Assembly: GCA_000611775.1 (NCBI GenBank)
Contig: KK106984.1
Span: 774,364-838,363, forward strand
Direction: 5' to 3'
DNA: 64,000 nt
Source: Umbilicaria muhlenbergii
Taxonomy: Eukaryota > Ascomycota > Lecanoromycetes > Umbilicariales > Umbilicariaceae
Below, piece after piece: positions 1 through 38,098 of the stretch (positions within the stretch are counted from its first letter, which is position 1; each line of letters begins with the position of its first letter). Below the pieces are notes generated by a model. It had not been told where the DNA came from, ran no database searches, and was given only the letters and a program-made list of their open reading frames with translations. Position numbers and translations under genes: made by a program.

Positions 1-1150
1 TTTCAGATTGTGTGATGTAGTGATGATGAATGTTCATCAACAATTTAGCAAGTTAGCTCTGAGTTAGTTTTTAGCACTTTGAGCGCTCTGAGCTTCTGAT
101 CTCATGTCTCAGCTAACAGCCGCTCTTAGCATCCCCTGAGCGCTTTGAGCTCAACCTTAAATCTTGAGCGGAACATCAAAATTTTGTGATAAAAAAACAG
201 ATATTAAAACAATTGTTTAAACAAGTACACACACAGTGTTATAATAACAGTAAAACTTATAATAAGTAAACTTTTGCTAAAATTCACTTTTCTGCAATAA
301 AAAATCATGATTTGTTGAGTCTGAAAGCACTGTATAAGTGTTGAGTTCTGAATATTTAAAGAACTTCAAGATTTTCATCACTTAAAAATTTACACACTTT
401 AATAACTTTTGCAACTCAACAGATATGAAGAAACTTTCAATGCATAAATTATAAAAAACAGTATTATCTATTAATGTTAAATTAAAAGTTTCTTCATAAC
501 TGCTGTTATTGTTAAATTATATTTAATTCAAGTTTGCAATAGCGAAAAATCTTTCAAAAAAAGTCACATACTTTGAATAACTATTGCGCTTTTATACTTA
601 TAATATAACTTTCAGGTTATAAGTTGTAGAGAATAAGCTGTTGAAGAGTTTTCTTATACAAAGTTTCTTTTTATGTGTTGTTGTTATTGAGTTATTCAAA
701 AAGTCATTAAAAGTCGGTTTATTAATGTTGTGATTTTCATCACTGAAAGTTTAAAATCAATGTAACTTTTTAACAACAACAGTTATAAAAAAACTTTAAG
801 TTATAGAACTGTGTAATAGCTTCTTCTCTACAACTTATAAACTAAAAGCTATATCATAAGTATAAAAGCGCAATAGTTATTCAAAGTGCTAATATATTTA
901 TAATTAGTTAAAAGTTTTTTAATTCATAACTATTGCAAATTAAAACTTATGAAGAAATCTTTAGTTTGTAAAGTGTACAGAATAAAGAGATTTAAAACTT
1001 TTCAATAAAAAGTTTTTTATTATTCATGAAGGTATAATAGTTATTTAAAGTGTAAGATTTGTATGAGCTTATTTACTGCTCAGAGAGTGCTCTGAGCGCA
1101 TAAAGTACTATTAACTAAAACCTTATTTTTGAGCGGGCTGCCAAGTTGCA
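1..1150. repeat. AT-rich foldback repeat region
   Basis: No gene. Positions 571-600 are perfectly complementary to 857-886 (30 bp), and 617-633 to 824-840 (17 bp), with looser pairing between, so 571-886 can form one hairpin of about 315 bp. A second stem pairs 424-437 with 485-498 (14 bp perfect). The outer sequence holds two direct copies of a phrase resembling CCTTA..TTTGAGCGG, near 155-172 and 1,123-1,136, which may mark element ends. It looks like a decayed foldback or MITE-type transposon. The family is not recognised. Confidence 0.6.
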
Positions 1151-3730: not shown

Positions 3731-3734
3731 TCTG

Positions 3735-5000
3735 CTGTCCTTCTAAAGAAGCTTCATATGTCAGATGCATTTCATGCACTTCATTCATGTCTCACTCTGA
3801 AATTCACTGATCATACTTTTTTAATCATTTCTTTCATTTTATCTTATATTAAATCTCTTTTTGATATTTTCACTTGTTCAAGATTTCTTTAATCTCATAC
3901 TCCTCTTTATCATCAATCAACTCTGATGATTGCAAAGTCAGTGTAAACTCATCACTGTATCAGTGCTCATACAGCTTTAAGTAAGATACATAAAAGACAT
4001 TGTGAATTCAGTAGTTTGATGATAAGAATAATTAATATGCCTGTTTCCTGATTAAATCCTGTACTTTAAATGATTTAATAAATTTGTGAGACAACTTTCT
4101 GTTTGAGCACTTCTGTCATAAGTTCTTTATGAATAGCATTATCAAGTCTCTCACATTATAAGTCTTGAGTTTATGTTTAACATCATAATATTTGACCTGA
4201 GATTTAATCAGATTTTCTCATCATTGTGACAGTGCTTTCTGTATGTCATGAAATTGTTTCATTTAATTTTTTACTGCAGGTATCTCTTTTTTCCTGAAGT
4301 CATCTTTAACTTCAAATCTCACTTCTGAATGATAAGCATACATGACATAAAAAGAGTTACATCTTATTGATGCCTGCATTCTGTTATTGTAAGTGAATTC
4401 TGTCAAGGGTAAAAGGCTCATTCAGTTATCTTGTTCATTTAAGCAATAACAGTGAAGGTAATGCTTTAAAGTTTGATTTTATTATTCTGTTTATTCATTC
4501 ATCTGTGAGTGAAAGACAGTGCTTAGCCGGCGCTTCATTCTTAAATAGTAGCACATTTTCAATCAGAAAGCACTTGTGAAAACTGATCTTTAATCAGAGA
4601 CAGCCTCTTTCAGTACATTAAATCAACATATTATTTCCTCATAAAACAAGTCAGTCAACTCTGTTGCTGTAATCATTTTCATGATTTGAATATATTAAGT
4701 CATTTTCATATATTAATTTATAATTATTAAGATCACATCATAAACATTATCCTTGCACTTACTTAACAGCAATTCAGTGATAAAATTTATTATGACTTGC
4801 TGTCATGATTCTTCTGACTGAGGCAACGCCTGTAGCTCTTCATAAGAATGATGTTTAAGCACTTTCACTCTTTGACAGATGTCACATGATGCAACATAAT
4901 CTTTAACATCTTGACTCATATCAATTCAATAATATTTGTGATCAATTAATTTAAAAGTTCTTTTTACCTTGAAATGCCCTGTCAAGATATTATCATGATG
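3735..5000 (-). pseudogene. Integrase and chromodomain remnant of gypsy pol
   Basis: The minus strand around 4,920-4,860 translates to a CDICQR-type zinc-binding segment (CxxC followed by QR-K). The integrase core follows near 4,800-4,480, recognisable from ILIII..YxKM, VFTSAF and LSTVFHSQ-like text that matches the DDE core of gypsy integrases. At 3,935-3,735 a segment beginning EEYEIKEIL and continuing with KY..EI..KIK matches the start of a chromodomain, which in chromoviruses steers integration to marked chromatin. Several in-frame stops occupy expected Trp or Arg positions. Not functional. Confidence 0.75.
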
Positions 5001-5599
5001 ATGTTTTAAGATCTCTGCTCTTACTGACTTTTCTTTCAGAATGTATATTTATTCCTTATGAAATAAAAGACCTTCAGAGTTAAACCTTCAAAGACTTTCA
5101 GCTTTAGCCTTGCACTTCATTAATGTACAATCAGTGTTGTGCATCTCTACTACAAATGAATCATCATTTTATAAAGTTTGAATCAAATCCTTCAGAGGTA
5201 AACTCAGGCTTTCATCAGCTGTTTCATGAATGACAAAATCTCTTATCATCACATGTGAAATGAGTTGTTTGCAATTAACAGTTTCAGTGACAGAGTTAAG
5301 CTGTTTCACAGTTACATCATAATTGTCATGAATAAATGTTTTATCATCACTCCTTCAGTATTTTTTCTGAAGTTTAAGGTTTTTAATCTTAATCATTCCC
5401 TCTGCTCTTGTGAGCAACTGCCTCACAATAGAGGCATATCTGAGTGAGAATACATTCACAAGAGTGATTAACTTTCTTTGAAGTGTTGAAAGTAATTTCT
5501 TCATGATCTCACTCACCTCTTCAACATCCCTGTAGTCTGATCACCTTAATGATGCATCAGCAGGATTAGTCTTTTCAGACTGATGCAGAATATTGAAAT

Positions 5600-6880
5600 T
5601 AAAAGCAGTGAACTTCATTGCTCATCATGCTTGCCTGTCATTCAATTCCTTCATGTTCATAAATCCTCATAAATTATTATGATCAGTTAATATCTTTATG
5701 ATATAACAACTGCCTTCAAGGTAGTGTCATCAGTGCTTAAACATCATAATGATGACAAGAAGCTTCTGATTATGAGTTTCATATTAAATCTCTGAAGGAG
5801 ACAGCTTTCTTGATTAAAACATAACTGAATGTCACTTCTCATTATTCAACAGCTAAGACAGGATGTCACTGAGTTTAATGATTAACACATCAGTTTTCAC
5901 CTGTATTCATAACTTTGAGTCAAAGTGAATCAGGATGAGTGTCATCATAAAGACTTTATGAAGATGATTAAACATCATCTTTGCATCACTTGAGAATTTA
6001 AAAAGTTTAAACTTCTTTTCATTCTTGTTATCTTTTATAAGATTTGTCAAGGGTGCTGCAACTTGTGAATAACACATAATGAAGCATCTATAAAAGTTCA
6101 CAAAGCTCAGAAAGACTTGTACTTTCTGAAAAGTTCTTAATACTGATCAGTCCTGTATGATGTTCACTCATCACAGATTCATCATTACGCCTTTAATGAT
6201 GATAATAAACTTTAGAAATTTCATCTTGATAATGAAGAATTCACACTTCTTAAGGTTCACATAAAGTTGAAATCAGTGAAGTCAATTTAATATTTATTTA
6301 ACATGCTCTCAGTGTTCTGCTGATGATCCTGAATATATAAGGATGTCATTTAGATAAATAATGCAAAAGACATTCACAAGCCTTATTAACACTCAGTTGA
6401 TGTAAACTTGAAATATAACTGAAGCATTAATCAATCTGAAAGACATGATCATATACTCAAAGTGACTGTAACATGTGTAGAATATTGTTTTTCACTTGTC
6501 ACTCTTTTTTATACAGATATAATGATAAGTGTTCTTTAAATTTAACTTCATAAATAGCTTAACTTCATTAAGCTGATTCAAGGTTTCACTTATAAGAGGT
6601 AATGAGTGCCTGTTCTTGATGATCACCTTATTCAACCTTTGATAATCAATGCATAAGTGCAGCCCTTTATCTTTTTTTGAAACAAAAAGAATAAGTGCCC
6701 CTGCAGAGCTCATGAAATGATGAATTCAACCTTTTGTTAAAACATCATTCAGGTATTCTCATAACATCTTTAACTCAGTATTGAAGAGGTTATACAAAGG
6801 GTCATAAGATGAGTTTGTGTCATTTAAGTCAATTGCATGATCACTGATCTTGTGAGGTGAAAGGAGGTCAGCATTCTCTG
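5600..6880 (-). pseudogene. Reverse transcriptase and RNase H remnant of gypsy pol
   Basis: The minus strand from about 6,880 reads a pol entry resembling DHAIDL..., then an open stretch at 6,713-6,492 with VSKKD and CIDYQRLNKV (RT fingers/palm), then the catalytic box at 6,356-6,345. That box reads YLND instead of YxDD, so the first catalytic Asp has become Asn by one G-to-A change. The stretch at 6,101-5,907 (NFYRCFI...VAAPLTNL) is the conserved RT-RNase H linker. Broken by stops and not functional. Confidence 0.8.
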
Positions 6881-8640
6881 TTGAGAACACATTCACATAA
6901 TCAGCATACTCCTCAAGTAAAGCTTATGTTATATTAATGCTTTATATGCGCACCTTTGATGCAGCATCATCACTCAGACTGACTTATATCATGACATAAA
7001 CAGCAGAGTGATCTTGAATCTTCTTTATAAATTCATTTAATGACTGTAACTTGATAAACTGCTCCTTAATATTAAAGCATCACGCCTTCAGTCTGCAGTT
7101 AATTCACACATGCTCAGTCTTCAATGCAGAAAGTTCAAGGATAAGAGGTGATCCTGACTTATTTAAAGCATAAAATACATGTTCACATTCATGAGATTGT
7201 CCTCAACTGTCAGTAAGCTGATAATGCACATGATAAGTATTAAAGCAGTAAGCCTTCTGATTATTTAAGAATTAAAATTAAGACAATAAGCTCTTCATAT
7301 GAGTCAATTGATGCTCAATAATGAAGTGTTGTGAAATCACATTGACTTCAGCTTTCATGTTCAATAAGGCTTGCATGAGTATGACATCATCATTGTGAAG
7401 AACTTGTTCATCAACAATTAAACTGAGCTCTGAGATTACTTTTGTTCAGCATTTCAGTGATGTGAAGTCTTCACTGAAGTGTTTTCATTTTTTAATGCTA
7501 AAACAGCTGCAACTGAGGTCTTATTCAGGTTTAAGTTTTTTACAAATTGTGAATAATCAGGAAAATAATATTCCTTCTGATTATAATTTTAATAAGTCAT
7601 GTGTGATAAGTTTTTTATTTCAGAAGTTTTCATTAATTTGCTTTCATGTTTCTTATCTCACTTGCTCTTCATCTTGCTCTCATCAGGCTTATGATTTTTA
7701 TTCTCAGCAAGCTTCAACAGCAGCTCAAGTTTACAACTGAAGGTAACTGTCATATTAAGATTTGCTTTTAATTTCATGATGTCTCTCAAACATAAGTTAT
7801 TCTTCAGGTGTGCAGTCAAGGTAATGATTCTCTTTTAAATTATAAGTAAGTTTTAATAATTCATCAAGGCTGCATGAACCTCAAGCTTCAATTCTGTGAA
7901 GAAGTGAATCCTCATGTGCTCTTCACTGTAAAGAGGTAACTGAGCTTTCAAAGTGCTTAAATAATTATCAAAAGCTTGAACTGATTGATGAAGTAATTAA
8001 ACAACATCATTATACAGCTGAGTGATGTGAAGCTGATGATTCACAGGGTTCTTAATAATGTCAAGCAGGAATTTCATAAAATTATTTCAGATAATGATGA
8101 AATAATCTTTGATTTCATCATCTTGCAGTCACACCTCCTTTGATTCACTTTTTAAATATTGCATGATGTAAATCACCTTATTTTTCTCATGAGGGAAATT
8201 AACTGAGTTAAAATGAAAGGTATTTCTTGCATTTTATATTTAATTCAGGTGCTTCTTCATGTTCTTATCATGATATAACAGCAACTCCTTTGCCTGAATT
8301 CTTGATCATACATTTCATATTGACAGTGTTTCATCAGCGTGATGCTTACTCATTATGAACTCAGTGTTCATTAAGTTGAGGAATCTCTCAGCTGAGGTAT
8401 CAACATGAGTAGCAGGATCTCTGAGTAAGTTGATTTTTAATGTTAAAACTTTCATTCAGAGCTGCTGCAGTTCTTGTTACTTTAAGAGTTTATCTCACTG
8501 TCATCTCACTTATGTGATTTTATCATTAATATTATGCACTGTTTCACCTGAGGATCCTTCACCCTCAAGGTTCACTTCACTGATGTCAGAGGAAATGAGT
8601 GATGATTCATGATTATTTTATTAATTCTTCATCATCATGT

Positions 8641-11100
8641 CTTGTTCTGCTTCAGAAGTTTAATGTAATTGATTTTAAGTTTACATCTTATCTCAGGTCA
8701 TCATTCTTTGAAAGATAAAGTTATTAAAACTGTGAGATTATAACATCCCTTATTAAAAAGGGAAGTATAATTGAGGTTCATGACAGCATGAGATATAAAT
8801 GTATAAAGTTATATGATTTTAACTATATAGAACTAATAACTAAGGAGTGAAAGAAGAAGTGATGAAGTAATGCAGAGTTTTATTGTGTGCATCATCAAGT
8901 CACTTAAGAAGTGCTAATTTAAATGTGTTATTATATCATGACACCTGCCTCTTACTCTTGATCCTCATGACAGTAATTTCAGTGATGTCATCAACACTCT
9001 ACAGGCACTTTATCATCTTGATGCAGGTTAATTACTTCAGATCAACAGCATTAACACATATATTTATGCATTTACTTTAACATACCTGAGAGATATGCTG
9101 CAACAGCAGGAAAACTTCAATTTCATGTCTTAACATGTCAATTTCAGCTGCTGATCCTGCTTTGTGAAGGTGAAGGAATGAAGCAATCTCAATTTTAACA
9201 TTGTCAGTCATGAACAGTTTCATCATGAGATTATGTGAATGTGAAAGCAAATGAAGTTCATGAAGAAAGATCAGTGCATTAAGTATTATAAGAAAACAGC
9301 CTTGATCCTGATCTATCATTACTTACAATAATATCATCAGCACTCAACATAATTCAGTCTTAACTTAATGATCCTGCACATTCAGAGTACAATGATATCA
9401 TTAAGCAACTTCACATTTTTTTTATGTCTGTCATACTCAGTCCTCATGATCAGAAGAAGTATGCAGAACAACTTCATTACTTCTTTTATTCATCAAGCTG
9501 AGGTTGTCTTCAATCTTCACTTCATCACCTTGATAATTATCAACTTCAAGAGCATGCTTAATGATCAGTAATAACATCAACTCTACTTCACTGCTGACTC
9601 AAGAATAAGCATGTGTAGCCTCTCTTTCTTCAGGATATTCAGGCTGTTTTTAAAGATGTTATCAGGTCAATGTCTGCTGTTAACCTCATTATTACAACCT
9701 TTGCTGCAGTTGTGAAGTTAAACATCACTCTCATGACTGATAACCTCTTCAGCAAGAATCAAGTAGAGTCTTTAATTAATTTAAAAGCAGAGTGACTTCT
9801 TTTTTAACATCTTCTCAAAGCTGTTGTTATTGCTGTCTCTCTGAACCCTTGAAGCTGCTTTATCATCCTTAATGCATGATCTGAAATCATCACTCTCACT
9901 GATGCTCAGTCTCAGCTCTCAATTGAGTCAGTCAAGACAAGTGTCAAGTCAGAGGAGTTTCATAATGACAAGAAGTAATTAAACATTCATGTCAGTATTC
10001 ACTACAGAGAGATTATGAAGGAGTATGCTCTCATCAGTAATTATAATGTGCTTATTAAGAAAGATAAACATCAGTATTTATTTGATGTTTTTCTGAAATC
10101 TGAGTACTCTTACTGACTTCTCTTTAACTGATTCAAGAAGATTATTTACAACATTAATCATTTTAACATTGAATACAACCTTCTGAGTTGTGAGAATGTG
10201 TAATAAACAGCTCACTTTCTTCTTCAGAACTTCTTTATCTTCTTTGAGTCAGCATTCATCAAGACTTTTTAAAAGTTGTATGTTAATTATTCTGCTCTCT
10301 TCTCCTCCCTTCTACCTCATTCAGAGCAGTCAAATGAAGACTCAGATGAGCTCTTCATCTCTATTGCTGATGATTGAAATCACACAAACTCTGCTGCTTT
10401 ATCTCACCTTCAGGCAAAGTACTGCTGTGAGGTATTAACATTATTAGTTCACTCTTTAACAATGCAAGATTTCTTCAAGAATGACCTCTGATGAGCTTAT
10501 GAGAATGACTACAACATGTCAGGTATCATGCACTTTGACAGTGATGTAATCCTCTGATGCAAGAAGTTTAACTTTAATGATCAGTAAGTGATTCTTGACT
10601 GTCTCCTTCACTTTAACTCTATTTGTCTTGTTTGAAGTTGACATATTACATAGGATTCTCAAATGCCACTGTACCTTTTAATGCAGCAATTACATTCAGT
10701 ACTATGAGATTATGATAAGTCAGATCAATCATGTCTTTGTTCATGAATTACTCAACTGTCAGTAACTTTTCCTCATCATTATCAAGGTCACTCAAACAGC
10801 AGTAAGCAACCAGATACTGAGGCTGTCAATGCTGAACACTTAAAATGGACAGGAGCTGATTGAGTTATCAGCTGTTATGAGTCAGAAACTTTATATTGTG
10901 CTGATTATACAAGTGAAGGAGGATTTACAGTTTATATTAAACAATATGAATCTTCTTCATGTTGACTGACAGATTCAATTCCTATAGATATTTTATTTAA
11001 TTATAAGTACAAATGTAATGATATACTGATATCTATTTAATATGTAAGGTACCTAAGTACCTAGTAGTGAAACCTGTAGCTATCATATATTTGTTCATAC
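8641..11100. other. AT-rich block, unassigned repeat remnants
   Basis: No host gene is recognised. The base composition and the near absence of CpG and TGG match the retroelement next door. Only short open frames occur (for example 9,077-9,319 minus and 10,190-10,438 plus), without motifs. It probably holds one or more older transposon copies beyond recognition by eye. Confidence 0.4.
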
Positions 11101-23092: not shown

Positions 23093-24045
23093 TACTGATC
23101 ATTCTGCACTCACCGGGTGAACAGCCACATCAGAGCAATATCATGATGACATTAACACTTCAATCTCATCAGGTCAGTAAAGCAGTTAATAATTAAGTCA
23201 CAGCAGGCCTGTCAATGAGCAGGTTTACACTGTCAGCAGTTAATACTTCCTCTGAGAACAACATTAATGATGATAACATCAATACAGACCGCTTTAATGA
23301 CAACATAAAAGATGTTGAAGTGATTACTGCTCATAATCAGTGAGCTCTTGAGCTTCAGAGAGCACAAATCTGACATGCTCAACAAGAGATTAAATATGAC
23401 AATAATCAAAAAAAGCTCAACAAACTTAACTTACATTTATGACAAGGGTCTCAGATTATGATGAATTCAGAAAATGCAAGCCTTAATCTTGAAGTATGAT
23501 GTTAAGTTATAACAAACATCACTTCACCTTCTTTTCATCATTTTATTAAGTCATGATCACCTCATCTGTATGCAGGTGACATTAAATGTGATAAACAGAA
23601 GCTGCAAGACTACTTAAATGAAATTAATTAAAATAAAAAGATAATGCTGAAGCAGTTCTTTACTGAGTTGAACTTTATCCTCTGATCAGTCACCTTTCTA
23701 GAGAAGATCACATTAAGTGATTGATACAAGAAAAAGAAATGACATGACTCTGCTTAAATAACTTATAAGAGTTACCTTAAAGTGCTTGAGAAGAACTTAT
23801 CATCAAGTGAGGACATTAATGAGTGAAACATCATTATCTTCAATGCAGCTGAATCATGCAGCAATGACATCATTACATCTTGACATGATAAGCTGTCAGA
23901 CTTATACTGCTTTCTATCAGATACACACAAAGAGATCAGTGAAATACTCATTTAAAATCATTAAAGATCAAGGCTTCCTCATCATGTCTTGACAGAATTA
24001 TGATGTTGAGATTAAAAGCAGATGATGACATAATCAGTGAGTGAA

Positions 24046-24173
24046 TATTACAGTACTATCACAGTCTTACCAGGCTATAGTTGTTCTGCATGACGCTAGT
24101 GAGCATATATGCCACGCCACCCTTCTAGATACTTAGACAAGACTTATTACAATATATATTTTTTATTCTAACA
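24046..24173 (+). repeat. Left 128-bp LTR of the BIR element
   Basis: Aligns over its full length, without gaps, to 25,541-25,668. The differences are transitions, most of them the left copy having lost C or G. Ends TTCTAACA. Confidence 0.93.
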
Positions 24174-24438
24174 AATAGTAGCAACATCAGTTTAGAGATC
24201 TATGTTCAGTCTTCATACTGAATAGGCATAATACGCCATCAGCAGCACTTCATTGTGTATGTCATCAGCAGCGCTTCATTGCGTATGATCAGTCCTCCGT
24301 GGTAGTACCAGTCAATAACACCTACTATGAAGACACCAGTCTCTAGATGTCAGTCTCTAGACATCAGCCTCTAGCAACACCTAGCCAGCCAGCTAGCAGC
24401 CCTGTGAGAACGCCACTGAAATATCAAGTCAAAATGGA

Positions 24439-25389
24439 ATGTTCTACGCCTCAAAACTGCCGCCTACGAAGCAGTCAACACACTCATTGAAAAAACAGCA
24501 TCAACATCTTCACTCCGTCATGACCTCCTACAGCAGTTGACTCAGAACCTTTCAGCTCACCTCTTGGCCTCATTCTTCACTCACTCCACAGCCAGAGGAT
24601 CTTGCTGCAGTTGGATTTTCCTACGCCGGTACTGAGAAATATCCTGATATGATACAATGTACTAGGTGTCAAATCAGGCTTGAAAAATGAGAGCCAGAAG
24701 ACAATGCATTTATGGAGCATATCAGACGCTCACTCAAGTGCACTCAACACCTTGTCTCTACATCAGCTGCCTTCTCCGCCTCAGCTGTGTCTGCATCAGC
24801 TGCCTTCACCCTAGCTGTCTCTACATCAGCTGCCTCCGCTCCAGCTGTCTCCGCACCTGCTGCCTCCGCCGCACCAGCTGTCTCCGCCCCAGCTGTCTCC
24901 GCACCAGCTGCCGCCTCCACCGCATCAGCTGTCTCCGCCCCAGCTGCCTCCTCCACATCAGCTGTCTCCGCACCTGCTGCCTCCGCCGCATCAGCTGCCT
25001 CCGCCCTGACTGCCTCTGCTCTGCCTGCATCACCCCTGGTTCTACCACTGTCAGCTGCCTCCACACCAGCTGCCTCCGACAAAGTTGCCTCTGCTTTGGA
25101 AAAAGCAGTCACAAAGACCGCCTCCGCTGCATCAGCTGCCTTCACTGCCTCAGCTGCCTTCACCTCAGCTGCCTACCTCCTGACCACCTCCGCCTCAGCT
25201 GCCTCCGCCGCACTGACTGCCTCCGCCTCAGCTGCCTCCGCCGCGCCAGCTGCTTATCCCCTGACCACCTTCACCTCCGCTGCCTCCGCCTCTGCTACAC
25301 CTACCACTAGCGCTGCGCTAGCGAACGCCACCATATTTCATGCGCTCAAAAGGCATGAATTCAGCCCCAAATTGAGCACATCTAGTTGA
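24439..25389 (+). pseudogene. BIR-domain protein with Ala/Ser/Pro-rich tail (two in-frame TGA)
   Basis: A frame from ATG 24,439 to TGA 25,387-25,389 (316 codons) is interrupted only by TGA at 24,538-24,540 and 24,688-24,690. Residues from 24,544 to about 24,750 form a BIR (baculovirus IAP repeat) zinc domain: RTFQLTSWPH, then PEDLAAVGFSYAG, CTRC (first two zinc ligands) and EH with C seven residues after the His (the other two). The second TGA replaces the conserved Trp after the CxxC, so TGG-to-TGA mutation explains it. The tail to 25,389 is about 200 residues of Ala/Ser/Pro/Thr repeats. BIR proteins act in apoptosis inhibition or, in fungi (Bir1), in chromosome passenger complexes; the function here is unknown. 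Confidence 0.82.
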
Positions 25390-25540
25390 AGCTTTCACTC
25401 AGTCAAATTTCAAGTGATTTTCAAGCAATTTTCAGCCACTTTTGATCCTCAACAAGGCATAGGTTAGAAGTGACCACAAAAAGGCTGTTATGTATGTATG
25501 TGTGTTGAGGGCGCCGCCTTTTCTGTCTTTTGTGGGCAAT

Positions 25541-25668
25541 TGTTATGGTACTACCACAGCCTTACCGGGCTATAGTTGTTCCGCATGGCGCTAGTGAGCA
25601 TATATGCCACGCCACCCTTCTAGATACTTAGACAAGACTTATTACAACATACATTTTTTATTCTAACA
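25541..25668 (+). repeat. Right 128-bp LTR of the BIR element
   Basis: Less mutated copy with canonical TG...CA ends. It retains CpG and CCA/TGG sites that the left copy has lost, so the two LTRs record which bases were mutated. Confidence 0.93.
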
Positions 25669-26739
25669 GTGAAATCTTCATGCAGCTTGATGCTATCATC
25701 AATAATGAATCATTTCAAAGCCGCACTGAAGGCAAAAAGGAGCATCAATACATAACAGATAACTCTGAAAAAACTATAATACATATGTTGTACTACAACA
25801 AGAGCTGAGATTATGATAAGACTGAAATTATCACTGAAGACCTCACACTTCATGATTAATCTTTCAGTCATGACAAGGGAGGATCTCACTGAGGAGGCAA
25901 GCATGATCAATTGAAGAATATTAACTCAAATCATCTTTCAGTTGCTGAGAAAACCATGATGACAATCACTCATAAAGTCATAAAGTCATGTAAGAAAGGG
26001 GATCATGTACTGATGAATGAGATAACTGCATGAAAAGCTGCAAACCTCTGCATCAAGTGTGAAGTCACGGGTCACTGAATCAATGAGTGTTAAACAGGAT
26101 GATCAACAGCAGTCATCACTGCAATTAATGCTGATTAATGACTTATGATTAACCTTCAGCTTGCCTCATTACCTATCACTGATGAGATGTCATCACTAAT
26201 AACAGAGCAGCTAGAGGTGAACTTTTTAATTATAATAAAAGATGAGCTGACTCATAGATCAACTTATTAATATATCATTAATAATGACAGTTAAGGCAAT
26301 ACAATCACATGAAACATTGTTGATGAGCTGTCTCTACATATGAAGTGATATGAAGCTCAAGGTAACACATGAGGTAATATAATGAACTTATCAGAGTTTA
26401 TCATACTGTTGATTATCACATATGACAGTGATGATCAGTCTTATTATTATAATCACTGCTTTTACATCAGTTTAAATGACACATCAGTACTCTTTATCCT
26501 TAGATTATCATTTTTAGTCAACACAAACCTCAATCATGATTACAAAATTAGAAGATTCTTATAAAGAAAAAAAACATATTAAAGCACAACAGATATTCAC
26601 AGTTAATGAAAGAAAAGTATTAAAAGATGTTCTACACTTGAGTAATCTCTTCATTACAGAACACTTCATAAGCTTGACAGATTTAATAATTGATATAAAA
26701 GCTCTGCAAATGAATTTCATACATTATGACAAAAAGTAT

Positions 26740-28700
26740 GATAATGTTTATGACATCTTATCATCTGAGTATCATGACTTCATGAATATTTTTCAAGTGA
26801 TGAAGACATAATCTCTGTTAAAGAGAGATTCTCATGATTATGTCATTGACTTAAAATCAAGGCAGTAATCCTCATTTGAGAAGTTATACTCAATGTTTTC
26901 AGTTGAGCTCAACACATTAAAAGTGTACCTCAATAATGCTGTTAAAGCAAGTATCATTCATAAGTTGATATCATCTGCAGCATCACCTGTTATGTTTATA
27001 CTTAAATCAGACAGAAGCTTATGATTAATCATTAATTATAAACACCTTAATGATATCATCATCAAAAACTGTTATTCACTGTCATTGATATCAGACATGC
27101 TTGATCATCTTCAGAGAACAAGAAGATTTATGAAGCTGAACTGCAAAAATGCATATAACTGAATACACATTAAAAGTGATGATGAATGAAAGACTGCATT
27201 CTGAACACAGTTCAGATTGTTTAAATATCTCATTATGTTTTTCAATCTTATCAATACTCCTGTTATGTTTTAAGCCTTCATGAACAAGGTGTTTAATGAG
27301 TTTCTTAATGTCATCTGCATGATTTATCTAGATGACATCTTGATCTTCAGCAAAGATGAGTTTAAGCATGAAGAGCATGTATAACAAGTTTTTACTGCAC
27401 TCTGAGATCATGATCTTTACCTTAAGATTAATAAGTACTCATTCAACACCTCAGAGGTTAACTTCCTTGACTTTAAAATCAACACTGAAGGCATATTCAT
27501 GAACTCTGAGAGGATATGTGCTGTCAAGGAATAATTATCTTCAGAGAATGTTCATTAATTACAGGTTTTTTTAAACTTTGTCAACTTCTTTTAAAGGTTT
27601 ATTAAGAATTATTCATGAATCATAGCACTTCTTATGAAACTTCTGAAAATGAGAAAAAATAAAAAGAAGACTGAGATATCACTAAAATTATAATAATTAT
27701 GATAAATGAATGTTGTAGATGTCATATCTCCTTCATATTCACTTTCAAAAGCTACAATGAAAGTGTTTAAGGCCTTAAAAGAAGCCTTCATGAGCACTTC
27801 TTTATTATGATATTTTGATGAGAACAAGTTTATGCAAGTTGAAATGAACACTTCTGCATTCATCATTAATGAAATATTAACTCAGCGCTTTAAGATCAAT
27901 GAGCAATTTCATTGATTATTAATTGCATACTACAGTAGAAAGCTACTAAATGCAGAGACATGATATAATACAAGTGAACAAGAACTTCTTATTATCATGA
28001 AGATAATGCATCATTAACATCATTACTGCTGAGGCGTCAGACACTCAATTGTCATATTAACTGATCATGCAAACCTGATCTGATTTATGATCATCTTAAA
28101 TCTCATGAGAAGGCAGCTCAAATGAGTTGAAAAGCTCACTGAGTATGACTTCAATATCATGTACTGAGAAGGCAAAAAGAACTCTGCTGACAGTTTATCA
28201 AGAAGACTTGATTATGAACTGCTGAAGACTGCAACAACCTCAACTGCTGCTGAAATAATGTGACAGTCCTTTCACTTAAGAAGTGAGGATTATAAATCAG
28301 TGCAGAAGTGATTATACACACTTGATGTGATGACACTGCAGTCAAGACAATCAGTATGACAGAAGTTACAACAAAAGAATATCATATCTACTGTAATAAA
28401 TATTATCAATACAATGAATACCAAAGATGATGATCTCATCAGAACATCAGTAATGTGAAATTTATTAATTCAAGAAGAAGCAAGCTGTAATGAACTGCAA
28501 TCACAGCATCAAGTACAACTGCTATAATAAACAAGCATCATACATATGAAAGGCATAACTACAGATGTCAGTATGAAAGGCATAACTACAGATATCAGTA
28601 CAGAAAATAACATAATTATGAATATTAATATGAAACATGTCATTGACAGTGTCACTCAAGCATGTTTAAAGCAGTAACAGTGACACTTATCTGTTCAAGA
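26740..28700 (+). pseudogene. RT and RNase H remnant of outer gypsy element
   Basis: From 26,740 the frame reads EYHDFMNIF and then YVIDLK (pol entry), palm motif INYKHLNDI near 27,035 and the intact catalytic box YLDD at 27,325-27,336 followed by ILIFS. RNase H text follows from about 27,770 (KEAFMSTSLL, YSRKLLNAE, VILTDHANL, NSADSLSRR near 28,190). The remnant stops at 28,713, where the inner element inserted, and the integrase half resumes beyond 34,936. Numerous TGA and TAA stops. Confidence 0.82.
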
Positions 28701-28713
28701 AGCAAGTCATGAC

Positions 28714-28920
28714 TGTTATGACATGATCAACTGACACTGACAGATATTGAACTACCTGATGTTAAATTAAATTGAGACTAGTGTGTCTTGACACTCTGAC
28801 ATTTATGTCATGACTGCACTCACAAGACTGCTTCCTTCTTTGTACTTTTTTAAGTTCAAATAACTCACCTCTTGCAATAGTTCTAGGCCTGCTTATGAAG
28901 TGAAATAATTAACTGTAACA
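28714..28920 (+). repeat. Left 207-bp LTR of inner gypsy element
   Basis: Same length as the right LTR. The distal 110 bp are nearly identical between copies and the proximal 95 bp differ by transitions. TG...CA ends intact. Confidence 0.93.
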
Positions 28921-29759
28921 TTAGAAAAGTACCTACACTCTTTTCAACCTCTGAAGGTGACAGAATATCAGCTGAGACAAACATGTATATTAATGAGAAA
29001 ATTCTTCCTCAACATCATCAAATGTCTCAACTTATAATTTACTGAGTGATCAGGAGGTTTCTAGAACATCTTAAATTCATTAATTAATTATCAACAATCA
29101 ATTCTCAAGTCCTGTAAGAAGTAAGCAATGAATGATTAAGAAATACTCTGTCACAGTGACAGGTAACTGTGAGAAGCAGTTACAATAAATAAAAAGTTCT
29201 GCAACATGTAAACACTCTTGAAGATCTATTTGTAGGTACAGACAACTACAGTAAAAGCAGTTGAAAGAGCAAGGTTCTGAACTAAATAATCTCAACATTA
29301 AGAGTAGGTGTCTGAAGCACTGAAGAAATCATGATTAAATCACATTAAAAGAGAGAGATCTCTCCTTAATCTGAAAGATTATTCTTGACTGAAGGACAGC
29401 CAGATGATCATGAGAGATTAAAAATAATAAACATCATGAAGATGAACTCTTGAGGTGAGGTAATCTCTGAAAATTTACAGTGATAAGCAGCACATGATTC
29501 AGAGAACATCTGTCATTTAATATTGAAGGCGCTAAATCAGAGAGATTCATACAAGGCACAAATACAGGATTTAAAAGAACAGAATAATTAAAAAGACTCT
29601 TAAATAAAAAAGTTAACAACTGAGAAACAAGAATTGAAACAGAATGTGTTGAAGTTAACCTGACAACTTAATAATCCTGAAGCAGAGCAGTCAAGAGAAG
29701 GCACATTTAAATTAAACATGAGTGACACAATGAAGAAGTGTTCAGTGAAGTTTTCAGAT

Positions 29760-30535
29760 TCATTAATTTTGAATGATGATCTTAAGCTCATGTTTCAGGT
29801 ATGAGATGATCAGATGAAGAGCAAGTTATTAATCAATGATGATTAATTCAATCAGTCAGATCAAGATGAAGCTGAACATGTCAGAGTGATTTACATCAAG
29901 ATGTGAATTAACAGCAAGGTCACTGAACACCTTTATTCATGATTAAAGACTCAGTCAGGAAGAGAGATTTATGTTGAGAAGATTATTTAATATTTGAAGA
30001 ACATCTTTAAGGATTCAGATCATCACTTGAAGACATGAAAGCAACTGAAGAAGTTCAAGATGTCTTATCTTGAGAACTTTAACATGTTTCAGTCAGAGTT
30101 TTTATGACTGATGAACTCAGTGAAGATGTCAACAGATCAGTGAAAAGAGAAAATTCATGACAAGTTATATGACTCACTTTGAGTTCAAATGAAAATTTAT
30201 GTCATTGATGAGGACATGTTATTTGACACTTACTGTAAAAAGGCTCAACAGTTCATGAGAGATCTTGTCAAAGCAGATGAAAAAATCAAGAAATGAAAAA
30301 ATTAATGAAAGTTGCAGAGGAAGCAGTCAACTTTTAAATTTAAAAAGAAGACAATCATCACAATCACTGCTGTTGTATGAGAAATAATTAAGTTAATATT
30401 AACTGATGTAACTTATTACATCTGCAATAAGAAAGAACACCTGGTGAGGAATTATTCTGATAAGTTAAAGAAAGCTGAGGCAAAGGCTGTAAACTCTGAT
30501 CATTCAGATTCAGAAAATAAGCTACTTTAAATGAA
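29760..30535 (+). pseudogene. Gag remnant of inner gypsy element
   Basis: The frame reads a helical capsid-like region (HLKT..KQLKKFKMSYLENF) and a Lys-rich stretch. A degenerate CCHC knuckle follows at about 30,420-30,455 (C-NKKE-H-LVRN-Y; the last Cys has become Tyr by G-to-A). Stops are mainly TGA and TAA. Confidence 0.7.
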
Positions 30536-30599
30536 GTTTTCACCTTAAAGTCAACAGAAGGAGCAAAGATAAACAAGATGAAAATATTAAACATTTTAA

Positions 30600-30960
30600 A
30601 GAAGTCATCATTGATCTGAGATTATTAACTTGCAGTCAACAGCTTAATCATAAGAGTAGCAGCTCTGCTAAACACTGATGCTGCTGAAGAGGCTTTCATT
30701 CATAAGAAGCACTTTAAATTTGTGAAAAAACATCTGCAGCTATACATCAGGACAGCACAAAGATTAATTCTTTTAACAAAATATAATAATCAAAATGCTG
30801 AAGTGATCTTCAGAGCATTTACAGCAAATTTAATGATTAACAGAAGATGAATCTCTACTCATTTCTTATTTTGTGACATCAGCAGGCATGATGTTCTGAT
30901 TGAGAGAAAATGATTTGAGAAGATTAAGGTATTAATTGATTACTTTAATTAAAAGCTGAT
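30600..30960 (+). pseudogene. Aspartic protease remnant of inner gypsy element
   Basis: Reads AALLNTDAAEEAFI around 30,662-30,700. The family active site is D-T/S-G followed by A; here it is N-T-D (30,671-30,679), both changes being G-to-A. The enzyme would be dead even without the stops. Confidence 0.7.
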
Positions 30961-31599
30961 TTGGCCTGAGGAGGCTCAATATCAGGCAAGCAAGAACTTA
31001 ATAATATTAAAATAAGAATTACAGTTATCAGAAGTCAAATTAGAACATTAAGTAAATACTGAATGACATGATAATCTGCATGAGGCAGCAACACTGACTC
31101 AGATCTTAAGAAGAGCAGAAAGAAATGAAATCATAATGACATTTAACAAAGCTGACCCTGAGGATACTGAACATTCAACAAGGTTAAATGAGTGAAAGAA
31201 AAGATTTATTAAATCACTTAAAAAGTCAGTCCTGCAGCTATGAGCATAATCAAAGACATGAAGAGCTCAGCAGCAGATCAACATCAATGAGATGAAAAAA
31301 CAACTGAATGAAAAGAAAGATTCAATGAATCACATGAATAATTCAATGAATAAAAGTCAAAGTTCATTGAACATAAAGAAATCAAAGGATCATAAACTTT
31401 CTTTTTATCAAGAAGTGAATATTATACTTCTGAAAGCAAAAAACTTTCTATACAATGTTAGAAGGAAAGAGGTGATTATTAATGTCATTAACATTCATGA
31501 GGTTGATTACTTGATAAAGAACTGAAGAAACCCCTGTCTGCTGTTGCAGAATGAAACAGAGTTGAATTAAAGAATAAAGAAAAAATTACCTCATCAGTA

Positions 31600-33000
31600 T
31601 TAAAAGTTTGTGAAGGTTTTCAGCAAGACAGCATCAGATCAGCTGTCTTTACACAAGGAAAAAGTGAATCATGATATCATCTTGAAAGATGAAAACAACC
31701 TGACCTCAAGCTTTTTGTACAGCATGTCACTGAAGCAGTTAAAGTTAATCAAGGCTTACCTTGAAGATCATCTGAAAAAGAATTTCATAATCCTTAATGA
31801 TGCTTCTTACATATCATCAGTTCTCTTTGCAAAGAAACCTGAAGAGGGGTGAGGTTTTTGTGTTGATTACTGAAAGCTCAATGCAATCATTAAGAAGGAT
31901 AAGTACCCCTTGCCTTTAATTGAAGAGACTTTAACATGACTGATTAAAGTAAAGGTTTTTATCAAGCTGAATGTTAAACAGATGTTCTACTGAATACAAA
32001 TGAAGAAGTCTGTCAAAGATTTAATCATCTTTCAGATGAGATATAAATTCTACAAATACAAGATTTTATCTTTCAGCCTTTGCAACAAACCTGCCTTCTT
32101 TCAGAGGTATATCAACAACATCTTATTCAATCATCTGAATGATTTCTGCATGACTTATATGAATGATATTTTGATCTACTCAGAGGATTCATTGAAACAT
32201 GACACTCAAGTTAAAAAGGTGCTTCAACACCTTAAGAAAGCAAGCCTACAAGTGAACATAAAAAAGAGTGAGTTTAATGTTCAATTTATCAAGTTTCTGA
32301 GCTTCATCATCAGCACTGAAGATATTATAATGAACTCAGACAAAGTTTCTGTCATCAAGGATTGATTGTTATTAAAATTAATTAAGAAAATTCAGTTCTT
32401 CCTGAGATTCTGCAACTTCTATCATTACTCATTGAAAAAATGAGGTTGAGTTGTACACTTGTTGACAAAGCTGACTGCAAAAAGGGCCTGACACCTCTTA
32501 AAAGAGCTGAAAATTCAAGCTTTTGAGAAGGCAAAAGAGCTGATGTTATCAGATGCTGTCTGAGCTCACTACTCACCTTATTTGAAAACTTGAATGAAGA
32601 CAGACGTCAGCAGTGAAGTTGTTACAGAAGTACTCACTCAGCAACAGAAAGATGACAAGTGAAAACTTGTAATTTACTTCTCAAAGACAATGTCACCTGA
32701 GGAAATGTGATATGAGATTCATGACAGAGAGATGTTAACAGTTGTTAAAGCTCTTCAAGAATGATGTAACATGCTATTAAGCTTACAAGCAGCCTCTTTT
32801 GTCACAATTACAGATCATCATGCTTTAGAGTATTTTATCATCAAGTGATTATTTAATTCATGACAAGCTAAATGAGCTGATATTGTGACAGACTACAACT
32901 TTAAGATTATTTATCACTCAAGAACAATCAATGTTGTTGCTGATGCCTTGACAAGAAAACATGATGAGTTGATCACTCAGAAAGAAAAGAACATCACTGC
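31600..33000 (+). pseudogene. RT and RNase H remnant of inner gypsy element
   Basis: Open stretches at 31,610-31,852 (SLKQLKLIKAYLEDHLKKNFI, SSVLFAKKPEEG) and 32,000-32,365 carry RT palm and thumb sequence. The catalytic box at 32,156-32,167 reads YMND, with the first Asp changed to Asn. RNase H text follows (VIYFSKTMSPEE near 32,670; TITDHHALEYFI near 32,810; ADALTRKHDEL near 32,940). In-frame TGA breaks occur at expected Trp or Arg positions. Confidence 0.82.
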
Positions 33001-33049
33001 ATGAACACAGTTATTTCTGAATTTTAATTGCATAATAATCACAATAGGT

Positions 33050-34330
33050 GAGGGTTCAATGAATATTGAAAGTGATTCACTGAATAAGATTGAACAGATG
33101 AAAATTTTTTATCAGCTGATGAATCAGATTCTGCAAGTCAATCACTCTCATGAATCACTGAATCAGTATCATCAGATGACAAGAAAGAAGAAATGAGGTT
33201 AAAAGCTTTAAGATAATCTTCTTACATGATTTGAGAAGCTCATGATGCTGAATGTTGACACTTTGCAGACTCATTTGATTAATGAAGCTCATTCAACGCC
33301 AGTGATAATGCATTCAAGCAAGATTAAGATGACAAAGCTGTTGTCAGTTCAGTATTACTGATCAGGTCTGTCAAATGACTGTTCAGTTTTTGTTTCAAAC
33401 TGCTGAACATGTCATTGAATGCATGTACTCTGAGACAAGACCTCAGGCCTACTTCACTTTTTATCAATTAAAGATAAGTGCTGACAGCATGTCTCATTCA
33501 ACTTTAAATTCTTCTCATAAGACAAGAAAGGCTTTGACAACATATTTGTCATTATTAATTATGTTAAAAAAAGGGCCTTCTCACTGTCATGTCAGAAGAC
33601 AGTTATGACAGCTCAAGTTGTGCAATTATATTATGAGTACATCTGAAGAATCTATGAAACACCTGAGACAGCAATGTCAGACTGAGGGCCTCAGTTCATC
33701 TCAGCATTCACAGATGAACTCTGCAAGCTTATAAAGATAAAGCAAAAGCTTTCAACAGCATATCACTCACAGACAGATGAAAGCACTGAGGTATTAAATT
33801 AATACATCAATCAACAGCTTCACCTCTTCATGAATCACTTTCAAGACAACTGATCAGACCTTTTATCAGTAATGAATTTCACTCAAGCAGTTCTCATTCA
33901 TGAGTTCACAGGCATGTTATCTTATGAGTTAAAGCTGAGACAGACCCCTCATCTACATTTTTATTAAAAAGAGTGAATGCAATCCTTGAACACTGTAAGG
34001 GAGCAACTGACAAGAGAAGAAGCTCAGACCTTCATTATCAAAGCTCATGACATGATTAAATGAGCAAAGGAAAACCTGAAACAGGCTTAAAATAAAATGA
34101 CAGATCAAGCAAATAAGCACTGAAGGAAACTGAACTTCTTCATTAAAGACTGAGTCTATGTTACTCAAAAGGGTTGAACCACTGAAAGACTTAACTTAAA
34201 GTTGAATCATCAAGTGACAGGCCTTTATCAGATCCTCAGCATGAAAAGTCACTTTTATGTTCTGAAGTTATTTGAACACATGAAGATGAACAACATCTTT
34301 CATGCTGATCATTTAAGGAAAGTGATGAAT
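33050..34330 (+). pseudogene. Integrase remnant of inner gypsy element
   Basis: The core is recognised from GPQFISAF, KLSTAYHSQTDESTE and AVLIHEFTGMLSYEL around 33,680-33,930, the usual DDE-integrase landmarks (catalytic Asp before GPQF and Glu after QTD). The C-terminal part reads VTGLYQILSMKSHFYVLKL near 34,215-34,270. Interrupted by stops. Confidence 0.78.
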
Positions 34331-34724
34331 GATTTAATGCTGAATTAAATTCAGGACCTGAAGCTGCTGACTGAAGTTAATGATCAGTCTGAGTACACAG
34401 TGAAAAAATTTTAACAAGTCAGATTCACAACAACATCCTGTAATATCAAGTGACTTGAGAGGGATATGATTCAGACTCAGAATGATACAACACTGTTGAC
34501 TTTATAAGATCACCTCAAAAGGTAAAAGATTATCATAATGCTTATCTGAACAGAGCGGGGTCATCAAGGAGGCTACAAGTTTAATTAAATGCTTACAAGT
34601 CAGGCAAAGAGCTGAACTTGATGAATGAAGACAACATGACAGTCAATAGAAGATTCAAGAGGCAGTTAAGATGAAAGATTTAAAATGAAAATTGAGGACA
34701 GTCCTTCTGTCTGAAGAGGAGTGA

Positions 34725-34931
34725 TGTTATGACATGATCAATTAACACTGATGAATATTGAATTACCTGATGTTAAATTGAATTAAAATTAGTGTGTCTT
34801 GACACCTTGACATTTATGTCATGACTGCACTCACAAGACTGCTTCCTTCTTTGTACTTTTTTAAGTTCAAATAACTCACCTCTTGCAACAGTTTTAAGCC
34901 TGCTTATAAAGTGAAATAGTTAGCTGTAACA
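34725..34931 (+). repeat. Right 207-bp LTR of inner gypsy element
   Basis: Begins TGTTATGACATGATC and ends AGCTGTAACA, followed by the ATGAC duplication at 34,932-34,936. Confidence 0.93.
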
Positions 34932-35299
34932 ATGACAATATGAATTAATTAATTACAGATGAGGTTAGATATGCAGAGCCTCAACATCATTCAACTGAGA
35001 ATAATTCAGCAAGCTCTGCAGTTATAAATATTAAAGATACAGTCAACAATGATTTTATTAACCTCTGATTCAATGAAGGTGCTTCTGTTGACACTGTTAA
35101 AGCACTTCAACTCATGTCTACTCACACATCAATTAATGATGAGATAACAGCTTATACAAGGATGTCTATTAAACAACTTAAACATATTATTCATATTAAA
35201 CAGTTTAATGATGGTTCAGTATGATGAGTATGACAGGAATTAACTACCCTTATTGAGGATAAAAACAACTTGATTGAGCTTAATACAGAGGCAACACCT

Positions 35300-35385
35300 A
35301 ATATGAAGGTAATCATGACAACACTTAATACAAAGGCAATCATGACAACACTTAATACAAAGGCAATCATGATGATGTTTAACAT
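35300..35385. repeat. Tandem repeat, ~27-bp unit x ~3
   Basis: Units resemble AAGGCAATCATGACAACACT plus TTAATAC; the third copy is divergent. It lies in the outer gypsy pol remnant just beyond the inner element, in a region that should encode the RNase H-integrase junction. Confidence 0.75.
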
Positions 35386-35659
35386 GAAAGCAATTACAGA
35401 AATGCTTGACATAATAACAATTACAAAAACACCTGAGAGGGTTATAGCAGTAATCATGATAATAATACAGGCAAGATGATAAAAAATTAATGATATTGTA
35501 TATTATAATGATAAGATTTATGTTCTGCAGAACTCTGCCCTTCACAAAGTGATGATTAACTGATTTCATGATGATGTCTTCACAAGTCACTTCAGCAAAG
35601 CAAGAACAGTTGAGTTGATGTGATGAAGTTATAACTGATCAAGTGCAGTTCAGGATGTA

Positions 35660-36850
35660 TGATGTTATTATCATGATTGCATTAAATGTTAAAAAGTTAA
35701 GCCTTCACATCACAAATTATTTAAGTTATTAAACTCATTACTTGTCTCACCTGAGCCGTGACATACAGTAATCATGAACTTTATTATGAACCTGCCTCTG
35801 AGCAGCACATACAAAAGTACAACATGAAATTTAATTCTTATCATAATTAATAAATTGATCAAAATGGCTCATTATATTTTAATACAGAAGACAATATCAG
35901 TTGCTGACTTCATTGAGGTATTTATTCAGGACATAATTAAGCATCATGACATGTCAAAAGTTTTAATCACAGACAGAGATAAATTGTTTACATCAGAGCA
36001 ATGAATCAGCTTCTGCTTTCACATGCAGTATCATCATAATATGTCAACAGCTTTTCACCTGCAAACTGATGATTAAACAGAGAGGCAGAATCAGTCCCTG
36101 AAGATGTATTTATGCATATTCATTGATGAGCAGTAAGAGAACTGAGTGAAACTTTTACCCTGCACTGAGTTTTCATATAACAACTTCATACATGCTGCTA
36201 CAGAAAAGAGCCCCTTTCAGCTTAATTTAAAATGAGACCCTCAGATGAACTTAAGTAAGCTGTTTATACAGCATTCACATGAACAAATAAGACCTTATGC
36301 AGATGCACAGCAGCTTCAAGATTAAATTACAACAACTCAAAAGCAGCTATGACAGGTTAATAAAACATATGCAAATTATTACAATCAGCACTGAATGAAG
36401 ATAACATTCAAAGAAGGTGATTTAATACTGATTAATGAAAAGAATGTGTCAATGAACAAGCAGATGAAGAAACTGCATTAAAAAAAACTCAACTCATTTA
36501 AAGTATGATGTGTGATAAGTTAATCCTCATATGAACTCAACCTCTCAGAGGATCAAAATATTTATAACATGTTCAACATCACTTTATTGAAGTCATTTCA
36601 AGACACATGTCATGTGTTTCCTGCATTGACAGGAAAAGACCTACTACTTAATTAAGATGATGAGTGAGAAGTTGAGGCAATTGTGAATAATCACATTCAT
36701 GACAGCAGGCTTCAATACCTCATCAAATAAAAGCTGACAAATCAGGTGTGAGATGACACATGAGAGTCAACACACTTCATCTGCAATGCAAAGACAAAAA
36801 TGTGAAAGTTTCATGCTGACAATTTTGATAAACTGAAATTCAGGTGAGCT
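35660..36850 (+). pseudogene. Integrase and chromodomain remnant of outer gypsy element
   Basis: Integrase core text: LILIIINKLIKMAHYI near 35,840, VLITDRDKLFTSE near 35,970 and MSTAFHLQTDD near 36,045. Downstream a chromodomain is readable at about 36,655-36,850: DDE-stop-EVEAIVNNHIHDSRLQYLIK, where the stop codons (TGA, TAA) fall exactly on the conserved Trp positions of the domain. This half is separated from its RT by the inner insertion. Confidence 0.82.
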
Positions 36851-37106
36851 GTACAACATGACTCTTCAAGATTGATTAAGAAGCTGTCACAAAAGTCATG
36901 AGTCTTAAAAATTAAAAACTTTATCAGTTTTGTTAACCTGATCTCTTATGATAAAGCTTGTTTCCTATGACAAGAATATGACAGAGGCTACAACAATTAT
37001 GTTATCTTTTATGAGAGACATCATGAGTGAACTGAAACATCAACAGTTCAGAATTTACATGCTTAAGAAGCAAGCTGTGATGAATATATTAATATAATGA
37101 ATAAAC

Positions 37107-37481
37107 ATGAGTATGACAAAAGTACAACAATTACTACAACATTTTGTCATATTAAACAAAAATGAAAGGGGAGTAAGAAAGGCAGACTTACACTTAAACA
37201 GTTCTGAACATGCTGAACAATCTGAACAGCTTAAACAGAATTTAATTAATGTCATAAGAACACTCTTTTCTGATTTTCCTCAAGAGACTTTACAGGTTTT
37301 ATTAAGATCTTGCAGGACATTAAACATGCTGAATAATTTAAATAATTTAAATAATCTGAATGATTCTGAACATGCTGAACAATCTGAACAGCTTGAACAG
37401 AATTTAATTAATATAATAAGAACACTTTTTCCTGATATTCCTCAAGAGGTTTTACAGATTTTATTAAGATCTTATAAGTGA
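37107..37481 (+). CDS. Intact 124-aa ORF with a duplicated ~40-residue module
   Basis: Family not recognised. This uninterrupted ORF lies between the chromodomain and the right LTR of the outer gypsy element, where everything else is riddled with stops. Two copies of a module read SEHAEQSEQLKQNLINVIRT.. (from about 37,200) and SEHAEQSEQLEQNLINIIRT.. (from about 37,365), each ending QxLLRSxx, joined by NNLNNLNNLND. The predicted product is acidic-helical with leucine-rich ends and no Trp. Lack of Trp codons would protect it from the TGG-to-TGA stops seen elsewhere, so intactness does not prove expression. Confidence 0.4.
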   Translation: MSMTKVQQLLQHFVILNKNERGVRKADLHLNSSEHAEQSEQLKQNLINVIRTLFSDFPQETLQVLLRSCRTLNMLNNLNNLNNLNDSEHAEQSEQLEQNLINIIRTLFPDIPQEVLQILLRSYK

Positions 37482-37620
37482 TTTACAGCAAGGGCCTGAT
37501 GCAGTTTCACACATTCACTTTACATGATCAATCACTTATCATACTATCATGATGATGTCTATGATGATGGATTTGAAATCAATTGACATCAGGGATGACG
37601 TCATGAGAAGAAGAATGCTG

Positions 37621-37913
37621 TATCAGAGTTATCATATATAATAATATAACAGTACAACAGTATGACAGTACAACAATATATCATTATAACTCACTTATAT
37701 GATGACTTAATGAGTAGTGCCTTGACATCAAGTGAAAACTCTTCACAAGGAGGTTCAGAAACCTGCTTTCTTAATGATCAGTTTCCTCATTAAATAGAAG
37801 ACCTATTATCTATTACTTTTATACATGATTATATTGCTTAGATATCTCATTCTATAATTGTACAATAATTACAATGTTAATCTTGTTGTACCTGTCATAA
37901 CCTGTCTTTTACA
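37621..37913 (+). repeat. Right LTR (293 bp) of outer gypsy element
   Basis: Begins TATCAGAG (TG mutated to TA) and ends CTTTTACA, followed by GTGAG at 37,914-37,918. The 10-bp U3 repeats are degenerate here. Confidence 0.93.
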
Positions 37914-38098
37914 GTGAGAAAAGATGTCCTTGATTTTGTTGAAAAACCTTGACTCAGCATCTTCAAAACTAGATGATCACACTCTTTCAAAATTACTTGA
38001 ATACTTCATCATTTAAACTCATTGATAGCAGCCTTCAGACTGAGTTATATAAAAATCCCTAACACTGAATCTTCTGTGTGATGAAAATGTAGAGATTT

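Follow-up and report, generated by a model that had tools for sequence, protein, structure and literature searches.

A small LTR element carrying a BIR domain segment in the genome of Umbilicaria muhlenbergii

The stretch of Umbilicaria muhlenbergii DNA analysed here (hereafter the window) is 64,000 nucleotides long (assembly GCA_000611775.1, contig KK106984.1, positions 774,364 to 838,363 of the forward strand). AT-rich stretches, mostly of 30-34% GC, alternate in it with balanced ones (approximately 47-55%). In an AT-rich stretch, within a 2-kb bin of 47.5% GC, lies an LTR element of 1,623 bp (24046-25668), with an interior of 1,367 bp between the LTRs (Table 1). As the initial annotation had proposed from the letters alone, its direct terminal repeats are of equal length, 128 bp, and the 5-bp sequence GTGAA stands on both sides. 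The two LTRs align without gaps and are identical at 118 of 128 positions, the differences being ten transitions and no transversion. The right LTR has ends of the TG..CA type, and the left one has TA in place of TG. A conserved TGGTAGCAACACC-like site adjoins the left LTR and is a candidate primer binding site; the corresponding region reads ATTGGTAGCAACACCGG in the sister copies L011 and L013 of the family described below. Upstream of the right LTR, GTGGGCAAT, GTGAGCAAT or GTGAGTAAT was found in all eight copies examined, none of these being a classical polypurine tract.

Table 1. Features of the LTR element, in window coordinates.
Feature	Position	Strand	Basis or remark
Target site duplication GTGAA, left copy	24041-24045	.	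Read from sequence
Left LTR, 128 bp, TATTA...TAACA	24046-24173	+	Pairwise comparison, genome search
Probable primer binding site region, AATAGTAGCAACATC	24174-24198	+	Compared with sister copies
5' leader	24174-24498	+	Common to gag-protease and short-module members over most or all of its length, approximately 74-91% identity
BIR cassette, starting at ATG 24520	24520-24752	+	Restricted to the three BIR copies
In-frame TGA	24538-24540	+	Seen in all three BIR copies
BIR domain PF00653	24541-24744	+	Zinc ligand codons at 24658 (C), 24667 (C), 24718 (H) and 24739 (C)
In-frame TGA within the BIR, between CxxC and H	24688-24690	+	Seen in all three BIR copies
Ala/Ser/Pro-rich tail, diverged tandem repeats (15/33-bp units)	24753-25389	+	In frame with the BIR
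3' stretch preceding the right LTR	25390-25540	+	Common to L009 and short-module members; gag-protease members share pieces only
Right LTR, 128 bp, TGTTA...TAACA	25541-25668	+	Pairwise comparison, genome search
Target site duplication GTGAA, right copy	25669-25673	.	Read from sequence

The BIR domain, first placed at 24,544-24,750, was confirmed with PF00653 (E 5.4e-14, 52.9 bits against a cut-off of 22.9, profile positions 2-67 of 70, scored with X at stop codons), and its four ligand codons could be located. It scored 55.8 bits in a six-frame search of the genome for the family, and its best relatives among solved structures are survivins (E 3e-8). The proposal of a single open reading frame holding the complete ligand set followed by the tail stands only in part: two in-frame TGA codons interrupt it, and the uninterrupted frame (24712-25389, 225 aa) starts after the second of them and contains the H, the last C and the tail. 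Gag and pol, reported as missing, are indeed found neither in the translations nor by searching the element with gag, protease, RT and integrase query pieces.

A search of the genome (34.8 Mb, 7 contigs) with the left LTR yielded at least 28 places. Of these, 19 assemble into nine complete elements and the remaining nine are single LTRs or halves; two extra remnants, L046 and L047, were recovered with longer queries. Each of the nine complete elements is flanked by a perfect 5-bp target duplication, and all nine duplications are different: GTGAA in the window, CTCAT in L009, and TTTAC, CTTAA, CTGTG, ATATC, CAAGC, GATGT and GTGTA in the others. They were read by eye, and eight of them (all except that of L016) were rechecked by a script supplied with those letters. 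The number of LTR places and the regularity of the duplications exceed what chance would give. At its right end L016 carries an extra partial LTR in tandem (5473-5657), placed before the target duplication, and so has three LTR pieces.

The LTRs and the 5' leader are common to all nine complete elements, but their cores differ. The core is a BIR in the window copy and in L009 (C1:4882154), and a gag-protease segment in L010, L012, L015 and L016, which are 3.1-3.3 kb long. In L011, L013 and L014 the gag-protease slot is occupied by a module of 67 residues (MDITREDTRD...), and L014 reaches 4.8 kb, with additional sequence beyond this short module. The initial description of a gag-less mini-element thus holds for the window copy and has to be qualified for its sisters, which have gag-protease in the same slot. 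Within the gag-protease core, one stretch of L012 (X at the stop) gave two protease-like matches under the Pfam cut-offs, to PF13650 at E 1.8e-4 and to RVP_2 at E 1.6e-3, and queries for RT and integrase found no match in the four gag-protease sisters. The short module of L011 occurs at three places in the genome, all inside the LTR family; it gave no host gene in the genome, no Pfam match, and a best E of 0.75 among solved structures. The LTRs of L011 are one transversion apart, so that this copy is probably a young insertion. The Ala/Ser/Pro tail and the 3' stretch of the window element are well conserved with the short-module copies, whereas gag-protease copies match piecemeal, for the tail in short stretches only.

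Using the cassette as a DNA query on the whole genome, only three places were found, each adjoining a family LTR. The six-frame BIR search led to six places: three adjoining an LTR, two exons of the host Bir1 gene, and a weak one. The weak place, C4:4235843, was rejected as a further BIR, as it scored 20 bits, under the PF00653 cut-off, and no BIR is recognisable there by eye. The arrangement LTR-BIR-LTR therefore does recur with different target duplications, in two complete copies (GTGAA and CTCAT) and an incomplete one. That these duplications differ argues against the two complete copies having arisen by segmental duplication. The initial annotation had named as support many BIR copies, some of them with an intact frame; there are three, against 28 LTR places, and none has an uninterrupted BIR reading frame. 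The third copy, L022 (C3:2606820), retains its right LTR, and its likeness to the window element begins at ATG 24520. Its left half was assigned by position and by a four-of-five flank match only: L021, consisting of a left LTR and leader, and the right LTR of L022 span approximately 14 kb and are flanked by TAATT and TGATT, respectively. Given this spacing and the near-matching flanks, L021 and L022 may be a single element interrupted by later insertions. All four zinc ligands (CxxC, H, C) are kept in the three BIR copies, as are both in-frame TGA codons, and additional stops are present in L009 and L022. Since both TGA codons are found in all three copies, their common ancestor may already have been interrupted.

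No pol-bearing element with the family's own LTR was identified in the genome. A larger element, L042, has a gag homologous to the one in the gag-protease sisters (E 2e-14), and L040 and L045 show this homology too. L042 (C1, locus start 10598700; element 374-7207) has LTRs approximately 6.5 kb apart and the same primer-site sequence as the family. It contains an integrase zinc domain (PF17921, E 1.6e-10), preceded by an RT-like piece whose match (E 6.7e-4) is under the cut-off. The Ty3 affiliation of the window element, itself devoid of pol, is drawn from this resemblance between the gag of its sisters and that of L042. Taken with the pol traces of L042, the homology makes Ty3-type proteins acting in trans the likely source of mobility, and L042 a possible helper lineage. 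A pattern search of the genome for the primer site, with up to two mismatches, returned 18 sites, versus 7 for a control pattern. Among six sites examined outside the family, three had paired LTRs and only L042 was spaced like a full element. Because the primer site also lies beside several other LTR-like sequences, it singles out no one partner. Two of the elements with the same primer site, L040 and L041, are short, with LTRs of approximately 140-150 bp starting TGTTACGG or TGTTATGA; L040 contains a gag-like frame, and the interior of L041 is shorter. At another locus (L023 and L024, about C2:4794815-4803893), two family LTRs on the same strand are separated by approximately 9 kb and flanked by TTCAT and TTCAC. 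A gag match is present in L023 (E 1e-15). RT and integrase queries taken from L042, to which the search was confined, found no match in L023/L024, which might be a longer or nested family member.

The host Bir1 gene lies on C1 at 440 kb and has two BIRs, a long C-terminal part and introns, so that the BIR locus in the window is not the ancestral host gene. As spliced here, the host protein is 93% identical to a Lasallia pustulata protein, in an alignment covering 97% of the query region of 210 residues, and the splice sites agree with the Lasallia protein. Introns are located before LARAGF of BIR1 and around BIR2, and the cassette is unbroken at those points. This intronless state, where host exons are split, counts in favour of capture of the BIR segment. 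The window BIR is 32% identical to host BIR1 (over 68 residues), 31% to host BIR2, and 39% (over 61) to a stretch of survivin (PDB 1m4m); by tblastn, the match to host BIR1 is 38% over 47 residues (E 7.6e-7). Compared with 121 BIR1 domains (the host and the best 120 of 339 matches to host Bir1), mean identity was 33% and the maximum 38%; for the 121 corresponding BIR2 domains the values were 31% and 34%. Identities of 31-32% rule out that the cassette was copied recently from host Bir1. At this distance, either the capture would be old or the donor would be a gene other than host Bir1. In an unrooted tree (40 sequences, 69 columns), the BIRs of the element copies group together with support 100, on a long branch placed between BIR1 with survivin and BIR2. 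A protein search with the window BIR region, covering proteins of approximately 174-555 residues, with which the mutated copies share few words, gave no closer donor candidate. Neither did a profile built from the three BIR copies and one lichen Bir1 row disclose a closer source among its 14 matches; ten of these were examined and resemble Bir1 fragments, none with an Ala/Ser/Pro tail. They were probably attracted by the lichen Bir1 row in the profile.

Most changes in the family are of one type. Taking as reference the sites where L011 and L013 agree, and with direction assumed, 128 of 177 changes in six copies, L009, L010, L012, L014 and L015 among them, are C-to-T or G-to-A (80 and 48, with 49 others). 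This share is lowest in L014 (15/26). By context, the 80 C-to-T changes comprise 43 CpC, 16 CpG, 12 CpT and 9 CpA, as raw counts uncorrected for context frequency or shared ancestry. In two AT-rich parts of the window (1-10000 and 26001-38000), observed to expected ratios are 0.03-0.08 for CpG, 0.44-0.49 for CpC and 1.5 for CpA, versus 0.88-0.95, 0.93-0.94 and 1.04-1.13 in two balanced parts. TpA is not raised (0.64-0.65 in the AT-rich parts versus 0.70-0.73 in the balanced ones). At RT places, stops are mostly TGA, as judged by eye (150 scored of 877 candidates). The decay resembles RIP, but in an unusual sequence context, CpG and CpC being depleted and CpA spared; the papers on RIP or lichens that were considered make no mention of CpG, nor, in the part of them examined for it, of CpC.

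Over the 237 bp compared, the window copy and L009 differ by 17 transitions (6, 5 and 6 at codon positions 1, 2 and 3) and by no transversion, so that the pair was nearly alike before the transitions. Window and L022 differ by ten transversions, six of them at third codon positions (binomial 0.077), with no indel in 237 bp; their transitions, 10, 16 and 11 at positions 1, 2 and 3, show no excess at the third position. The third-position transversions and the lack of indels are a weak sign that the BIR may once have been in use, and past use of the protein is possible.

That the element was formerly mobile and gene-capturing we regard as real. The best explanation, which we hold with good confidence, is a non-autonomous, Ty3-related mini LTR retrotransposon, moved in trans, in which an intronless BIR segment was captured in the slot of gag-protease. 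Family members have in common the LTRs, the leader and the 3' end adjoining the right LTR, and differ in the core; in one lineage, an intronless, survivin-type BIR segment occupies the place of gag-protease. The most likely way of acquiring the segment would be a template switch, in the course of reverse transcription, to a cellular mRNA. The chimera retained LTRs, primer site and 3' end, and could thereby have been packaged, copied and integrated by the proteins of other elements. It inserted at least twice, as two different perfect target duplications attest, and probably three times. The copies were later altered mainly by C-to-T and G-to-A changes, presumably through a RIP-like process. 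Gene capture followed by retrotransposition, as the initial annotation had suggested, is thus the best reading of the co-occurrence of BIR and LTRs. Points against the explanation include that the gag-protease copies share the tail and the 3' part only in part, and that the donor gene was not found.

The same configuration could arise if two solo LTRs or fragments happened to flank an unrelated host BIR pseudogene. The BIR copies are indeed broken like a pseudogene, but the 5-bp duplication outside both LTRs is perfect, the leader and the 3' stretch are continuous with those of sister elements, and the complete unit recurs at a second site with a different duplication. Solo LTRs beside a resident gene are therefore rejected, given that a second complete copy exists and that its sister elements have the same leader, and we leave this reading almost no room. 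It is also conceivable, if improbable, that the BIR is an old native part of a gag-like polyprotein in some element lineage, and that gag-protease members lost it. The distance to host Bir1 and the separate clade on its long branch would fit such an origin, and the tail after the BIR shows short resemblances to the stretch following the protease in gag-protease copies. However, a BIR match was found in none of the four gag-protease copies, none of the three short-module copies, and not in L042.

Compatible with the preferred explanation of a captured segment is a donor in another organism, such as a lichen-associated animal, another fungus or a virus. The survivin stretch is slightly nearer to the window BIR than host BIR1 or any of the 121 fungal BIR1 domains. 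Yet some 70 residues are too few to resolve the question, the unrooted tree keeps the element clade between BIR1 with survivin and BIR2, and a scan of viral contigs for relatives of the element BIR produced three pattern matches, none of them confirmed. We consider a foreign donor possible, with the chances clearly against it. As to function, the BIR protein is best read as a passenger, or as having at most a former function, an intact copy being absent among the three, and nothing found here supports the suggested influence on cell death or on chromosome passengers. Survivin-type BIRs bind the histone H3 tail. Fused to a gag-like tail, such a BIR might once have anchored the element's particle, or the DNA of that particle, to mitotic chromatin, in parallel to the chromodomain found in integrases of chromoviruses; we give this speculation very little credence.

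Capture of gene fragments by TRIM elements is known in plants (PMC4717578). TRIM search criteria in the part of that paper considered here are the lack of retrotransposon proteins, an internal part under 2 kb and LTRs under 500 bp, and the window element, with an interior of 1,367 bp, LTRs of 128 bp and no gag or pol match, falls within them. The same source gives, as background, a total size under 1,000 bp, which its own gene-carrying TRIMs (1,172-1,449 bp) exceed; at 1,623 bp the window element is over this size, and we therefore call it TRIM-like rather than a TRIM. Both have short LTRs, 5-bp duplications and an exon-only, intronless cargo, mostly present in more than one copy after capture (PMC4717578). 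In contrast, plant TRIM cargoes are more than 70% identical to known host genes (PMC4717578), whereas for the window element no donor was found; what it carries is a single coherent domain that, two stops aside, continues in frame into the element tail, and its host is a fungus. Bs1 of maize is likewise an LTR element with cellular coding segments, but from three host genes instead of one domain, and in a different host (PMC13317346).

The four 3.1-3.3 kb sisters, with gag and unmatched by RT and integrase queries, are like the TR-GAG elements of plants; unlike these, they also hold a protease-like segment, and the short sisters carry a BIR or another module instead. With Bir1 and survivin the window BIR shares sequence likeness and all four zinc ligands, but it is a single, mobile BIR with a repetitive Ala/Ser/Pro tail, whereas a pair of BIRs and a long C-terminal part make up host Bir1. 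An LTR element containing a BIR is not described in the portions considered of a literature that excluded preprints and most subscription journals. Within that literature, gene capture by mini LTR elements in plants is known, and for a BIR cargo no precedent in print was found.

The element documents gene capture by LTR elements in a fungal host, the cargo being a coherent domain related to cell division. A family with exchangeable cores (gag-protease, BIR or short module) between a common leader and a common 3' end makes the route of capture testable across relatives. It also calls for caution with BIR matches in fungal genomes, which may be transposon cargo instead of Bir1.
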